A DNA stretch of 64,000 bases from positions 3,410,001 through 3,474,000 of the forward strand of contig NZ_CP019646.1 in the NCBI RefSeq assembly GCF_001999965.1, written 5' to 3'. Source of the DNA: Limihaloglobus sulfuriphilus (GTDB taxonomy: Bacteria > Planctomycetota > Phycisphaerae > Sedimentisphaerales > Sedimentisphaeraceae). Within the stretch, counting starts at the first letter, position 1. Every line of letters starts with the position of its first letter. The notes below the pieces were generated by a model that made no database searches, was not told the DNA's origin, and was given only the letters and a program-made list of their open reading frames with translations. A program made the translations under genes and the position numbers. Positions 291 to 55,867 of this stretch are shown here, piece after piece.

Positions 291-1466
291 TTAGAAGTAG
301 TATCCAATATTTACATTGAATCGCGTTGACCAGCCCTTTTTGCCGCCGTTGCTGAGGCCGTTGTTCCATGGCCCGCCGAGCCACGGGTTGTTCTTGCCCG
401 AAGCTACATCTACGTAAACAAAGAACTTATTAACAGCAAAAGAACATCCGACAACGTTTTGTAAAGTATCACTGAAATCGGATTTGCTCTTAGTCATGAT
501 GCTGAAATCATTGTACAGCGTCATGGACTTTACCGGTCCTAAATTAACCGGGAAAGTATAACTTACGCCGGCACTGTAAATCGCCGCTTCTGCCGCGATC
601 TGGTATGGGTAATCATAGGCACCGACCAGCACGTAGTCTTTGTCGTCCAGTACGGGGTCGCCGTCAACGTCATACTTATAGTACAGTGCTTCGAGCATGG
701 TGTTCCAGCGTCCGTAATTGCCGTTGAGATGCACTGCCGCGGCGTAGTGCGTGCCGTGGTCATCGGTATTGTCGTTGTGCACTCCTCCTGCCTGAAGAGA
801 GCCGCCCAGCTCAGTGCTGCAGTCTTCGCTGTGCTGCCAGGTGTGTGTCAAACGCAGGTTGCCCTGGTTCTGCTCTTCATTGCCGGCACCGTTTTCTTTT
901 ACCAGGTCATAAGAATATCGCGCCGAGTCTTCGCTGTCTCCGTTCCAGCTGCCTTCGTCTGAGACGTAATAGGCCGCCTGAAAATTCCAGCCGTCTTTCC
1001 AGGTTTCATACTTGGCACCGAGATCATAATCATCTTCCAGTCCTACGTAGTAGGGCAGCTGGAAAAACCAGTTATGAGATGCGTAGGGCAGAATGCCAAA
1101 GGGCACTCTGTGAACACCGAGTTTGATGTTCCAGTATTCTTCCTGCCAGCCGAGCCAGCCGTGATGAAGCATGTTGTAGTCATGCCCGTCACTGAATTTG
1201 TCCCGGTAGAAACGGTATTCAAAAGAACCTATGACGTTCTCGTCTTCGAGGTCAAGATTTATTCTCGCCGTATCGAAGGCAAACTCACCCAGGTCTTTAT
1301 AGGTTTCATCCCAGTCTTTGTACACGTAGTTGAGCCTGAAAGCTCCCCCGACTCTCAACGGGCCTACATAAAGGCCGTCTTTTTCCTGGGAATCATCGCC
1401 GTTAGCTGCAAATACAGCCGTAAAAAGACATAGTAGAACTGCAAGTTTCAATTTGCTGTTAAGCAC
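291..1466 (-). CDS. Outer-membrane beta-barrel porin (phosphate-selective porin O/P-like)
   Basis: A 391-residue protein with a clear N-terminal signal peptide (hydrophobic LAVLLCLFTAVFAA, cleavage expected near residue 21-22). It is followed by a chain of alternating, aromatic-rich strands such as RLNYVYKDW, FEYRFYRDKF and WNIKLGVHRVPFGILPY. It ends in YYF, and a C-terminal aromatic is the usual signal for BAM insertion of outer-membrane barrels. Composition and the VPFG segment resemble OprP/OprO-type porins, but substrate cannot be inferred from sequence. It lies 62 bp downstream of opuAC on the same strand, with a terminator only after it, so it is probably the last gene of the glycine betaine operon and may let the osmolyte cross the outer membrane. 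That role is inference. Confidence 0.7.
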   Translation of the reverse strand: MLNSKLKLAVLLCLFTAVFAANGDDSQEKDGLYVGPLRVGGAFRLNYVYKDWDETYKDLGEFAFDTARINLDLEDENVIGSFEYRFYRDKFSDGHDYNMLHHGWLGWQEEYWNIKLGVHRVPFGILPYASHNWFFQLPYYVGLEDDYDLGAKYETWKDGWNFQAAYYVSDEGSWNGDSEDSARYSYDLVKENGAGNEEQNQGNLRLTHTWQHSEDCSTELGGSLQAGGVHNDNTDDHGTHYAAAVHLNGNYGRWNTMLEALYYKYDVDGDPVLDDKDYVLVGAYDYPYQIAAEAAIYSAGVSYTFPVNLGPVKSMTLYNDFSIMTKSKSDFSDTLQNVVGCSFAVNKFFVYVDVASGKNNPWLGGPWNNGLSNGGKKGWSTRFNVNIGYYF

Positions 1467-1528
1467 AAATAGTCTCCTTTGTTTTCAATAATAGTACTCA
1501 TTTTATTATACGTTGTTTATCAAAGTGT

Positions 1529-2386
1529 TTATTTCGGCATAAAACTGTCAACTAAAGCCTTGTTGTCGGCTATCCACTGTTTTGCGACAGCGGCTTCGTT
1601 GCCCTTTGCTTCAGACATCTTGAGAAGAAGATCACTCATCTGAGAGTCATCAAGCGTGAAGTTAGCCAGCAATTCCGCTGCAAACGGGTCGTCCGTTTCG
1701 AGTCCCTGTCTGGCCCAGGTTTCAATTGTTTCTGTTTCACCGTAGGTGCCTTTTGGGTCTTCAAGGTATTTCAGTTCCCAGCGGGCAAACTTGAAGTGCG
1801 GCGACCAGCCGGTTACCACGATCCAGTTGTTTTCGCCGATAGCTTTTTGAAGTTCGCTGAGCATAGCAACACCGGAAGAGGGCATCAGCTCAAGTTTCAG
1901 GCCGTAACTCTCGGTAGCTTCCTGTGTTTTCTTCATGATGCCGGCACCGCTGTCGATACCTACGATCCTGCCGTTGAATTTTTCAGCGTTGTCGTTAAGC
2001 TCGGTTATCGAGTCGATCGTAACATACTGAGGCACAACCAGCCCGATGCGGGCACTGTCATAGTTGGTTCCCAGCTTGACTATCTTCTCGCCGAATTTCT
2101 TTACTTTTTCGCCATGCGTAACGGGCATCCATGTGTCCATAAACGCGTCCACGTCGCCGCGTGCCATCGATGCGAAAATCAGGTCAACGGCGGCTTTCTG
2201 AACAGTTACGCTGTAGCCGCTGCTCTCGAGCATATCTTTCATGACATACGTCATTGCAGGGCCCTCTGCCCAGCCCTCGACATAGGCGAGTGTGATTTCT
2301 TTAGTTTCCTCGGCTGTTTCAGTCTTACAGCCTGCAAATACTGCCATCAAGGCCGCAATTACAATAACTAAACTTTTCAATTTCAT
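1529..2386 (-). CDS. opuAC: Glycine betaine ABC transporter substrate-binding lipoprotein
   Basis: A 285-residue periplasmic binding protein of the OpuAC/ProX family. The N-terminus is a lipoprotein signal with lipobox ending at Cys20 (MAVFAGC), so it should be membrane-anchored. Aromatic motifs expected to form the cage for the quaternary ammonium group are present: VEGWAEG near residue 36, DTWMPVTHGE near 83 and GWSPHFKFARW near 195, followed by the family-typical LKYLEDPKGTYG. It delivers glycine betaine or a related osmolyte to the OpuAB/OpuAA complex. It is 33 bp downstream of opuAB in the same operon. The exact substrate (betaine, proline betaine, choline) is not decided by sequence. 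Confidence 0.9.
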   Translation of the reverse strand: MKLKSLVIVIAALMAVFAGCKTETAEETKEITLAYVEGWAEGPAMTYVMKDMLESSGYSVTVQKAAVDLIFASMARGDVDAFMDTWMPVTHGEKVKKFGEKIVKLGTNYDSARIGLVVPQYVTIDSITELNDNAEKFNGRIVGIDSGAGIMKKTQEATESYGLKLELMPSSGVAMLSELQKAIGENNWIVVTGWSPHFKFARWELKYLEDPKGTYGETETIETWARQGLETDDPFAAELLANFTLDDSQMSDLLLKMSEAKGNEAAVAKQWIADNKALVDSFMPK

Positions 2387-2419
2387 TTTTTACCTTTCTT
2401 TGTTTAACAATTATTAAAT

Positions 2420-3250
2420 TTATTCATGTTCCTGTTTGCCGAAGGCCTGGGTGATTCTGTCCAGGATAATGGCAAGAATCACAACGGAGAGGCCGCTTTC
2501 AAAGCCCAGCCCGATATTGAGATTGTTGATGCCCTCGAGCACCTTCTCACCCAATCCGCCGGCGGCAATCATTCCCGCGATTACCACCATGGAAAGCGCC
2601 ATCATGATCGTCTGGTTTACTCCGGTAAGTATGGTCTTCAGCGCCAGGGGCAGCTCAACCTTAAATAGAAGCTGCGTGCCTGTCGCTCCAAAAGCCCGTG
2701 CCGCCTCAACCACATCGGAGGGAACCTGTTTTATTCCCAGCGATGTAAGCCGCACTGCCGGCGGCATAGCGAAGATGATCGTGGCAAAAGCGCCTGGCAG
2801 CTTGCCGATGCTGAAGAACAGCACTGCCGGGATCAGGTACACAAACGCCGGCATTGTCTGCATGAAGTCCAGAATCGGGCGGATTATCTTCTCCGCCAGC
2901 AGGCTCTTTGACATCAATATCCCAAGCGGTATAGCAATAACCAGAGCGACAAATGTCGATGTGACTATCAGAGCCAGCGTTTCCATCGTCTCCACCCAGA
3001 AGCCCAGCAGGTAAATAAATACCAGGCCTATTACAGTGAAAACCGCCATGCCTTTGCCGACCTTGAAGAAGGCTAGCAGAGCGAGCAAGAAGATGAGGAC
3101 GTAGAACGGTGTAAACATCAACACGCTCTCCGCACCTTCGATCAGGCCGTTGCCTATCATTCGTATAAAGTCAAAGAATCCGCCAAAGTTTTCTGTCAGC
3201 CAGTTTACAGCTGATTCTACGTATTTGCCTATATCTATTATTTTTTCCAT
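2420..3250 (-). CDS. opuAB: Glycine betaine ABC transporter permease
   Basis: A 276-residue polytopic inner-membrane permease of the ProW/OpuAB type. The N-terminal part has an amphipathic segment and transmembrane helices around residues 40-80. The binding-protein-dependent permease core follows (about 88-270) with the EAA loop visible as VEAARAFGATGTQLLFKVELPLALKTILTGVNQTIMMALSMV split over the cytoplasmic loop. It forms the membrane channel of the importer. Its start lies 1 bp after the opuAA stop, so translation is probably coupled. Length fits the ProW core rather than the OpuAB-AC fusion, and the binding protein is encoded separately here. Confidence 0.92.
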   Translation of the reverse strand: MEKIIDIGKYVESAVNWLTENFGGFFDFIRMIGNGLIEGAESVLMFTPFYVLIFLLALLAFFKVGKGMAVFTVIGLVFIYLLGFWVETMETLALIVTSTFVALVIAIPLGILMSKSLLAEKIIRPILDFMQTMPAFVYLIPAVLFFSIGKLPGAFATIIFAMPPAVRLTSLGIKQVPSDVVEAARAFGATGTQLLFKVELPLALKTILTGVNQTIMMALSMVVIAGMIAAGGLGEKVLEGINNLNIGLGFESGLSVVILAIILDRITQAFGKQEHE

Positions 3251-3251
3251 T

Positions 3252-4490
3252 TTATTGCTCGTTTAAGTTTTCTTTGAGTTCTTCTATTTGTTCACGATCG
3301 AAACTGGTTGCCTCTACGATCAGTGAAATCTGCGTTACAATGCCTTTGAGTTTGCCGCTTTGCTCGTCCGTAACCGCCACGGGCGCCTCTGTGCCGGTTA
3401 TCAGCGGCAGCATCTGCTCAACCGTAGCATCCGGATTTACCATCGGACCCTGTGTCTGGATAAACTCTTTTATGCTGTGTTTCTTTTCTTTGTGTGCCCC
3501 TACCAGGTCTTTGAGCCAGACAAAACCTTTGAATATGTGGTCATTGTCAACAACGGGCAGTACCTCTACGGAAACTTTTCTCATTTTCCTTATGGCAACC
3601 TCTACACCGTCTCTTTCATATTGAGCGACCTGGGGCTTTTCAAACATCAGGGTGTTTGCAGTGATGATGGATTTTCTGTCAACGTTGCTTACAAATGCCT
3701 GGACGTATTCGCTGGCCGGCTCTGTAAGGATATCCTCGGCAGTTCCGATCTGCTCAATAAAGCCGTCTTTCATGATGGCTATACGGTCGCCGAGTTTTAT
3801 GGCTTCATCAAGGTCATGCGTGATGAAAACCACGGTTTTTTTGAGCTTGTTCTGCAGCTCCAGGAGCTGATCCTGCATATCCGCACGGATCAGCGGGTCC
3901 AGGGCTGAGAACGCCTCGTCCATAAGCAGCACTTCAGGGTTATTTGCCAGCGCCCTGGCCAGGCCTACTCTCTGCTGCATACCGCCGGAGAGCTGAGAAG
4001 GGTACTGGTTTTGAAACCCTTCAAGACCGACAGTGTTTATCGAGTCCTGTGCGATCTCAAGGCGTTTTGCGCCGCTCTCGCCGCGTATCTCAAGCCCGAA
4101 AGCCACATTGTCTATGATTGTTTTGTGCGGCAGCAGACCGAATTTCTGAAAAACCATACTCATTTCGGTTCTTCTGGTTTCCAGCAGCTCTTTGTCTGAT
4201 TCTTTTGTAATGTTTCTGCCGTTTACTATTACATCGCCGGCGGTAGGCTCTATGAGCCTGTTTAAACACCGAAGCAGTGTTGACTTACCGCTGCCCGAGA
4301 GTCCCATTACAACAAATACCTCACCTGTCTTGATGTCAAAACTGGCCTTGTTGACACCAACTGTACAGCCGGTTTTCTCAAGTATTTCATTTTTTGAAAC
4401 ACCCTGGTCAAGCATTTTCAGCGCTTCGGCGCGTTTCTTGCCGAAGATTACAGTAATGTCTTTGAGTTGTATTTTAATGTTATCTTTCAT
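3252..4490 (-). CDS. opuAA: Glycine betaine ABC transporter ATPase with CBS domains
   Basis: A 412-residue ATPase of the ProV/OpuAA type. Walker A GLSGSGKST is at residues 63-71, the Q-loop FQK near 114, the ABC signature LSGGMQQR at 167-174 and Walker B LLMDE at 188-192. The C-terminal third (about 270-410) carries a CBS pair, which in OpuA systems senses ionic strength or binds c-di-AMP. The ATG at 4488-4490 is chosen because a TTG 24 bp upstream lies in the T-run of the leader terminator. An AGAGA stretch precedes the ATG by about 5 nt. First gene of the opuAA-opuAB-opuAC-porin operon; transcription must pass the attenuator at 4513-4572. Confidence 0.93.
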   Translation of the reverse strand: MKDNIKIQLKDITVIFGKKRAEALKMLDQGVSKNEILEKTGCTVGVNKASFDIKTGEVFVVMGLSGSGKSTLLRCLNRLIEPTAGDVIVNGRNITKESDKELLETRRTEMSMVFQKFGLLPHKTIIDNVAFGLEIRGESGAKRLEIAQDSINTVGLEGFQNQYPSQLSGGMQQRVGLARALANNPEVLLMDEAFSALDPLIRADMQDQLLELQNKLKKTVVFITHDLDEAIKLGDRIAIMKDGFIEQIGTAEDILTEPASEYVQAFVSNVDRKSIITANTLMFEKPQVAQYERDGVEVAIRKMRKVSVEVLPVVDNDHIFKGFVWLKDLVGAHKEKKHSIKEFIQTQGPMVNPDATVEQMLPLITGTEAPVAVTDEQSGKLKGIVTQISLIVEATSFDREQIEELKENLNEQ

Positions 4491-4512: not shown

Positions 4513-4572
4513 AAAAAAAAAGCACTCTAACTCTTTAAGCCGGGTAAATTCCAGCTATAGAGTTAGAGTGCT
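4513..4572 (-). terminator. Leader terminator/attenuator before opuAA
   Basis: On the minus strand a perfect 14-bp inverted repeat (arms 4559-4572 and 4521-4534) encloses a 24-nt loop. It is followed at once by nine T residues (complement of 4513-4521) and ends only 22 bp before the opuAA ATG. This is the layout of an intrinsic terminator inside a 5' leader, which implies regulated read-through. The upstream leader segment corresponding to plus 4609-4619 can pair imperfectly with plus 4566-4575, which would sequester the first arm and act as an antiterminator. That pairing was done by eye. Confidence 0.85.
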
Positions 4573-4573
4573 T

Positions 4574-4740
4574 AAGCTTAATTTCGTTACTTTTACGAAA
4601 GTTGGCATTTAACCACCTCAATTAGTCGTGATTAAGTTCCGGGCCATCAGCAATTTCATGCTGACCCTGGAACAAGCCCCAGTTCTATATTAAAATACAT
4701 TTTTCACAAAAGGTTTCGGTTACCTTAGCGCTTACAAAGA
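4574..4740 (-). ncRNA. Candidate riboswitch-like structured leader of the opu operon
   Basis: The minus-strand RNA upstream of the attenuator holds several nested helices. GTTCC (minus of about 4667-4671) pairs with GGAAC (about 4635-4639). Inside it GGG pairs with CCC and TCAGC with GCTGA around an ATGAAATT loop. A separate small hairpin TTTCGT/ACGAAA lies at about 4583-4601. I could not match it to the consensus of the SAM-I, TPP, glycine or ydaO (c-di-AMP) classes as I know them. A Na+-responsive or c-di-AMP-linked class would be plausible because of the osmolyte genes downstream, but this is inference. The leader boundaries are approximate. Confidence 0.55.
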
Positions 4741-5065
4741 AAGTTGATGATTGTACCTTTTCTTTATTCGCAAAAAGCCTACTACTGTTTTGCTACTTCA
4801 TGAACTAAAACACCATTATACCAAATGCCGAAAGCATATCAACCAGTTTTTTTGTCAAATTTGTATGCGGCGTTTTGAAAATACCCAAAAAGCGAAAGTT
4901 TTTCTTTTTATACAGCGACCGTTTTGGCGGGTTTATACATACCGGATAGAAATTTTCTCCTCAGGCCCGCCCGTCGGGTCAAAAATTTAAAGCATTTTCT
5001 ATAAATGGTTTACGTGTAAATATGTTTGTATTTAAATTTATTTTTATTTTTTTTGAACTAAATGC
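4741..5065. other. Intergenic spacer between the divergent opu operon and the 16S gene
   Basis: AT-rich, with no convincing coding sequence. A 79-codon open frame on the plus strand lacks a ribosome site and resembles nothing known. The minus-strand promoter of the opu operon should lie in or just below this stretch. Weak candidates such as TACAAT (minus, near 4750) are visible but none has a good -35 partner. Confidence 0.5.
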
Positions 5066-5361: not shown

Positions 5362-7078
<1,717 letters not shown>

Positions 7079-55006: not shown

Positions 55007-55867
55007 CTATGCCTCTTTCTTGTTTTTGTCTTTACCGTTTTTCTTTCGCGACCAGAACCAGTCGCTGCTCTCATCACCAGATATAGCATTAGAGAGCCTT
55101 TTTCTAAGTGCGGATTCTTTGACATTCCTGATTAGATTTCCATCCTCAGCGATTGAGACAATCCCCGTCTCCTCACTTACAACCACGACCATAGCGTCAG
55201 AGCCGGTGGTGATTCCTATTGCTGCGCGGTGTCTTGAACCGAGCTGGAGTACGTCTATAGACCCGCTTTCGGCAAGGGGCAGCTGAACACTGGCGGCGAT
55301 GATACGCTCACCGTGGATTACAACAGCCATATCGTGGAGTGGTGTCCCCTCGTAAAATATTGTCTTGAGCAGGCCCGCGGTGATTCTTGCGTCTATTCGC
55401 TCGCCCGTCTCGACAAACTCGGCCAATCCGACCTGCCGCTCGATGACGATTATAGCTCCGGTTCGGGATTTAGACATGTCCTTAACCGCGGATATTATTT
55501 CCTCAATGCACAGGCTCATGTGCCTGCGGTTAGGAGAAAGCAACTTTGCCTGGCCGATGCTGATCAGTGCCCGCCTAATCTCGGGCTGAAAAGCCGCGAC
55601 CGCGACTATTAACATAGCAATCAGGAAACCCTTGTACATGAACTGGATACGTTCAAGGCCGAACCTGTCAACAACGAGGTTAAGAACAAGAGAGCCGGTG
55701 ATCAGAACAAAGAATACCCCCCTGAAAAGTCTTTCACCGCGTGTGCCTTCAAGGAAATTGACTACCCAGCTTACTACAAGTCCAACAAGAAAGAGCTCTA
55801 CTATGACTACTAAGGGATCATAGGTGAGCACCCTGTTGAAATAATATATAAGCGGTTCTAAATCCAT
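55007..55867 (-). CDS. cdaA: Diadenylate cyclase CdaA (DisA_N domain), substituted DGA motif
   Basis: 286 residues. Three membrane helices at 1-100, then the DAC domain. The RHRAA motif is intact (GSRHRAAIG, about 210-218). The first motif, normally LHDGA, here reads TPLHDMAVVI (about 176-185), with Met in place of the glycine; the sequence confirms GAT ATG GCT. The domain otherwise looks complete (SEETGIVSIAEDG). It makes c-di-AMP from two ATP for control of potassium and osmolyte transport. Whether the DMA variant is active cannot be said. It pairs with the CdaR-like gene and fits the CBS domains of OpuAA elsewhere in the window. Confidence 0.9.
   Translation of the reverse strand: MDLEPLIYYFNRVLTYDPLVVIVELFLVGLVVSWVVNFLEGTRGERLFRGVFFVLITGSLVLNLVVDRFGLERIQFMYKGFLIAMLIVAVAAFQPEIRRALISIGQAKLLSPNRRHMSLCIEEIISAVKDMSKSRTGAIIVIERQVGLAEFVETGERIDARITAGLLKTIFYEGTPLHDMAVVIHGERIIAASVQLPLAESGSIDVLQLGSRHRAAIGITTGSDAMVVVVSEETGIVSIAEDGNLIRNVKESALRKRLSNAISGDESSDWFWSRKKNGKDKNKKEA

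Follow-up and report, generated by a model that had tools for sequence, protein, structure and literature searches.

The opuA locus and its leader

The locus lies near the beginning of the window, that is, the whole 64-kb stretch of Limihaloglobus sulfuriphilus DNA that was analysed, and its four genes are read from the minus strand. The first one, opuAA (3252-4490, -), encodes a ProV-type ATPase with a CBS domain (TIGR01186, 409 bits over the cut-off) and has a weak Shine-Dalgarno sequence of its own (-3.3 kcal/mol). It is followed by opuAB (2420-3250, -), which encodes a ProW/ChoW-type permease according to profile matches, and by opuAC (1529-2386, -), which encodes a substrate-binding lipoprotein (PF04069, 222.8 bits). 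The last gene of the cassette (291-1466, -) is an ORF with no family match whose product is a putative outer-membrane porin. The profile matches to an OpuA/ProU-type ATPase, permease and binding protein agree with the earlier note on this DNA, where the downstream genes were described as osmolyte importers. A complete 16S rRNA gene (5362-6923, +) is divergent from the opuA promoter, and it appears to be unlinked from a downstream 23S gene since no 23S rRNA was found in the 64-kb window.

Upstream of opuAA, a sigma-70-like promoter was found at 4815-4842 (-), with the hexamers TTGATA and TATAAT separated by 16 nt and a TG before the second hexamer. It matches 11 of the 12 consensus positions and is the joint best of the 14 promoter-like sites in the first 9 kb; the same 9-kb scan showed no second consensus promoter on the minus strand of the leader, from 4815 to 4490. 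Given this promoter, transcription is expected to start at about 4808, and the leader RNA (4513-4808, -), as delimited by the promoter and the terminator, would extend for about 295 nt upstream of opuAA. The leader ends in an intrinsic terminator (4513-4573, -; -32.4 kcal/mol) composed of a stem of 15 perfect base pairs, in which AAGCACTCTAACTCT (4573-4559) pairs with AGAGTTAGAGTGCTT (4534-4520), a 6-bp upper helix and a run of nine T's (4521-4513), after which there are 22 nt to the opuAA ATG at 4490. This hairpin, with its nine T's ending 22 bp before the ATG, had been pointed out before, with a stem of 14 bp instead of the 15 found here.

The leader with its terminator folds more stably than its dinucleotide shuffles (z = -5.5). 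In the same comparison, the region 4684-4573, which leaves the terminator out, gave a z of -3.5 and the first 124 nt or so gave a z of only -0.25, so the structure of the leader is concentrated in 4684-4513. A multi-branch junction is predicted there (4574-4679, -), with the centroid identical to the minimum free energy (MFE) fold and four helices: P1 (4679-4674 with 4579-4574), P2 (4673-4636), P3 (4635-4609) and P4 (4600-4582). The nested helices GTTCC/GGAAC, GGG/CCC and TCAGC/GCTGA of the earlier note are present, all of them within P2.

The intrinsic terminator is thus located between the promoter and the first gene, opuAA. Since there is no promoter or gene in between, and no space for a promoter from the terminator to the gene, transcription of opuA must cross the terminator, which makes it an attenuator by position. 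Judged on this anatomy, the leader is very probably a real attenuator, and the previous proposal of a structured leader with a terminator that controls an osmolyte-importer operon by attenuation is supported by the promoter, the terminator and the fold z-scores.

Origin of the opuA cassette

The closest relatives of OpuAA belong to Bacteroidota (Thermophagus, 71% identity; Carboxylicivirga, 68-70%); relatives from the family of the host reach just 54% identity, and a good match was found in only 6 of the 161 genomes of the order, host included. In the Bacteroidota loci the porin is usually directly before opuAA, without a leader like the one described here, and the ORF upstream of opuAA in these donor-like loci shares the NINIGYYF-type C-terminus of the porin. 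The similarity of OpuAA to Bacteroidota proteins, its sparse distribution in the order and the leaderless, porin-first arrangement of the Bacteroidota loci point to an acquired cassette to which the leader was added in the host. Hence, the opuA-porin cassette (291-4490, -) was probably acquired from Bacteroidota by horizontal transfer, the porin moving from the first to the last position, and the leader probably originated in the host lineage and not in Bacteroidota. As the porin usually abuts opuAA and no such leader is present, the Bacteroidota sequences cannot be used for a covariation analysis.

Ancylomarina (L052) and one Labilibaculum locus (L054) carry about 150-200 bp of extra sequence between the porin and opuAA, upstream of the match at 5001. 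This extra sequence holds inverted repeats (CTCGAGGCTTGCCTCGAG-like), and it is missing from L050 and L053.

The opuAA leaders of relatives were also gathered, as the earlier note had suggested, and no homologue of the 4513-4808 leader was found among them. In two genomes of the same family (G002 and G004) these leaders are 97% alike over 251 columns; they are unrelated to the 4513-4808 leader and gave no Rfam match. Among the same-family opuAA leaders, those of L039 and L040 (about 2650-2900, -), 97% identical to each other and different from the 4513-4808 leader, present a hairpin CTGRCA...TGYCAG with one compensatory change, followed by TTATTTTT, and this arrangement is perhaps another attenuator.

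Short open reading frames in the leader

The leader contains two short ORFs. The second one, uORF2 (4555-4608, -), has 17 codons for the predicted leader peptide MPTFVKVTKLSLSTLTL and is preceded by the Shine-Dalgarno sequence UUGAGGUGG (4613-4621, -). The pairing of this sequence with the anti-Shine-Dalgarno of the 16S gene present in the same window, which ends in CACCTCCTTT, reaches -11.3 kcal/mol. In 1.26 Mb of the genome, a value of -11.2 kcal/mol is attained by about 3% of 551 long genes, that is, the uORF2 site is stronger than about 97% of them, and only 0.26% of all ATGs have a Shine-Dalgarno matching that of uORF2. Codons 13-17 of uORF2, from the second AGC to the second CTA, are within the 5' arm of the terminator, and its UAG stop codon (4557-4555) is located just inside the hairpin. 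The terminator is overlapped by a short ORF whose ribosome-binding site looks functional.

When the upstream leader was shuffled 2000 times with its dinucleotides preserved, 0.45% of the shuffles contained an ORF of 10 codons or more led by a Shine-Dalgarno this strong, and 0.05% contained one whose stop fell in the 5' arm or the loop of the terminator, although both frequencies are somewhat optimistic because the test was designed after the ORF had been noticed. A terminator-first search over 1.26 Mb of the genome recovered the opuA leader as the only case, among 48, of a Shine-Dalgarno-led short ORF entering a strong terminator. The architecture does not recur in this genome within the 1.26 Mb searched, which is a point against a control by ribosomes. 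No leader homologue carrying the uORF2 overlap was found in the same genome or in the relatives searched.

Regarding its composition, uORF2 has four leucine and four threonine codons among its 17. All four leucine codons are TTA or CTA, the two rarest leucine codons in the window (7% and 3%), but this is partly expected since AT-rich sequence favours both. An amino acid-type attenuator responding to leucine or threonine was considered and rejected, as the operon imports betaine-type osmolytes; no leucine or threonine logic is evident for a betaine importer, and this counts against a control by ribosomes.

The first ORF, uORF1 (4618-4659, -), encodes MKLLMARNLITTN and has a weak ribosome-binding site (Shine-Dalgarno of about -4 to -5 kcal/mol). 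Its UGA stop codon (4620-4618) overlaps the Shine-Dalgarno of uORF2, and uORF1 may be a chance occurrence. The GGUGG part of the uORF2 Shine-Dalgarno is predicted to be paired in P3, with an unpaired probability near 0, so the initiation of uORF2 could be gated. This masking is a point against a control by ribosomes, tempered by the fact that P3 alone is worth only -6.4 kcal/mol.

Proposed ribosome-controlled attenuation

A ribosome-controlled transcription attenuator of the pyrBI, ampC or mgtP type is the explanation of this leader to which we give moderate confidence. It is based on the exceptional Shine-Dalgarno of uORF2, the overlap of this ORF with the terminator, the weak Shine-Dalgarno of opuAA, the lack of an alternative promoter and the precedents of pyrL and mgtP. 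From these features we infer that uORF2 is translated, that its occupancy by ribosomes relieves termination, and which signals could be involved.

In this mechanism, the RNA polymerase would start at about 4808 and, by default, would halt at the terminator 22 nt before opuAA. A ribosome initiating at UUGAGGUGG and the AUG at 4608 would translate the 17 codons of uORF2 and, when finishing or pausing on it, would place its footprint over the 5' arm of the terminator. With the arm covered, the hairpin would be blocked and the polymerase would run on into opuA; if uORF2 were not translated, the terminator would form and opuA would be off. P3, which partly masks the ribosome-binding site of uORF2, could act as a gate, and the translation of uORF1, ending on this site, could open the masked Shine-Dalgarno.

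The candidate signals are a slow decoding of the rare TTA and CTA codons, a general drop in elongation rate under hyperosmotic stress and the opening of P3. Slower ribosomes could have either of two effects: to park on the arm, with opuA on, or to lag behind the polymerase, with opuA off. Hyperosmotic stress is known to slow elongation in E. coli (PMC5821080), and one could speculate that osmolarity reaches the leader by this route. Taken to its end, the route would produce an osmotic sensor with no dedicated receptor, in which slowed decoding of the rare leucine codons would park the ribosome on the arm and switch betaine import on, with P3 or uORF1 as a second gate; we regard this extension as a long shot.

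If confirmed, this would be a case of ribosome-coupled attenuation of an osmolyte importer in a lineage for which no leader-peptide attenuator of such a kind was found described. It would also be an example of a transporter cassette that, after its horizontal transfer, came under a new regulatory leader in the recipient lineage.

Alternative explanations

The leader could instead be a riboswitch, either of a class not yet described or strongly diverged within a known class, in which the P1-P4 junction would bind an ion or a small molecule. Read-through would then be decided by a shift in the register of P1, whose GGGGCUU strand could pair with AAGCUU or, alternatively, with the AAGCACUC that lies at the terminator base. 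The compact multi-branch fold (z = -3.5) is consistent with this possibility, and in folds of the growing transcript the 5' strand of P1 does move onto AAGCACUC. Moreover, Na+ and c-di-AMP riboswitches govern osmotic genes elsewhere, the rare proX motif is found ahead of a betaine transporter gene in Spiribacter, and the genome encodes a c-di-AMP cyclase. The diadenylate cyclase (DAC, PF02457) domain is located in the same window (about 55136-55492, -) and is the sole match in the genome; c-di-AMP is therefore probably made, although the genome has no c-di-AMP riboswitch.

However, the searches did not support a riboswitch. No family of Rfam 15, including the Na+, c-di-AMP and glycine riboswitches, matches the leader at the gathering score, in agreement with the earlier note, which had failed to assign it to the common classes; the Na+-linked or c-di-AMP-linked class that it offered instead finds no covariance-model match. 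When E values up to 10 were allowed, nothing credible appeared, and the best hit was RF03530 (BglG/LicT; 26.4 bits, E = 0.014). The T-box and SAM-type readings, prompted by eye from GGUGGUUAAAUGCC, were rejected as no such family appeared even at E = 10. A covariance model built from the opuA leader recovered nothing but the query when run on the host genome, 298 genomes of the class and 392 genomes of the phylum, and no homologue at 32 opuA loci, when riboswitch classes normally recur; this absence is only suggestive since a model built on one sequence easily misses distant relatives, and no other member of the genus came up among these genomes. BLASTN of the leader against the same genome and 98 relatives gave short chance matches only, such as a stretch of 29 nt at G000:655711. 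A conserved and covarying aptamer, as expected of a new class, was not found with this model of low sensitivity.

The energies also weigh against this explanation. The register shift of P1 brings an advantage of just about 1 kcal/mol, which is too little against a terminator of -32 kcal/mol. The pairing of 4619-4609 with 4575-4566, previously proposed as a competing antiterminator, can be drawn, but it does not hold as the main switch: it is worth -7.3 kcal/mol against -32.4 kcal/mol for the terminator and appears in no MFE fold of the growing transcript. According to these models, neither this pairing nor the P1 shift would outcompete the terminator without a bound factor. With no Rfam match, no homologous RNA in up to 392 genomes of the phylum and an antiterminator this weak, the unrecognised riboswitch class of the earlier note is unlikely. 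The 17-codon ORF with a strong ribosome-binding site that enters the terminator, which the earlier note had missed, provides a simpler, ribosome-based explanation. The case also serves as a warning that structured leaders of no known class that carry a terminator need to be checked for short ORFs before they count as riboswitch candidates.

It is also unlikely that the terminator is constitutive and just sets a low basal level, or that the leader serves chiefly as a small RNA, with a constant level of leakage into opuA, while the promoter and the CBS domain take charge of the regulation. In favour of this, OpuAA carries a CBS domain, a part through which ionic strength or c-di-AMP is known to gate OpuA, and the leader was recovered in no other genome. 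Nevertheless, the exceptional ribosome-binding site of uORF2 and its overlap with the terminator would be left unexplained.

Finally, a protein (an antiterminator, a stabiliser or another RNA-binding regulator) or a trans-acting RNA that binds the leader and relieves termination is improbable: the hairpin and its upstream helices generally resemble protein-controlled attenuators and the BglG/LicT element has the best Rfam score (E = 0.014), but this element (RF03530) was rejected because its 26.4 bits are far from the threshold of 80 and its alignment is mostly gapped in the first hairpin and covers mainly the terminator, and no BglG or PTS gene was seen beside opuA.

Comparison with known systems

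The BglG/LicT element (RF03530) resembles the opuA leader in having a hairpin before a terminator, but its antiterminator hairpin has no match here. The Na+ (DUF1646) and c-di-AMP riboswitches are likewise terminator-type platforms located before osmotic genes; the opuA leader differs in having no covariance-model match to them. The proX (SRC-29-1) motif of Spiribacter shares with it a structured leader, a betaine transporter gene and a ribosome-binding site subject to occlusion. According to its text description, on which this comparison is based, the proX motif acts on the translation of the main gene, and a terminator is not mentioned.

Closer to the mechanism proposed for opuA are the leaders of Salmonella. 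The mgtCBR leader has two short ORFs, and translation of mgtP past codon 12 activates the operon, whereas a block before codon 13 lowers its expression; the hyperosmotic induction of mgtCBR acts through the codons of mgtP (PMC3641672). As in mgtCBR (mgtM/mgtP) and mgtA (mgtL), the opuA leader is long, with two short ORFs, the second of which enters the control structure. However, mgtP uses proline codons and the mutually exclusive stems C, D and E, whereas uORF2 has one proline codon, several rare leucine codons and a direct overlap with the terminator, and the likeness is one of layout, with no sequence relation claimed.

In the pyrL-pyrBI leader of E. coli, a short translated ORF overlaps the terminator and the coupled ribosome blocks the hairpin (PMC5021804). 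The opuA leader likewise has an ORF that overlaps an intrinsic terminator before the first gene; the differences are that uORF2 ends inside the hairpin and that the target is an osmolyte importer. Furthermore, pyrL is longer than uORF2 and is coupled to UTP-dependent pausing. The ampC attenuator is of the same kind as pyrL-pyrBI. This type of regulation is, in itself, already known, and it is the target, an osmolyte importer, that is unusual.
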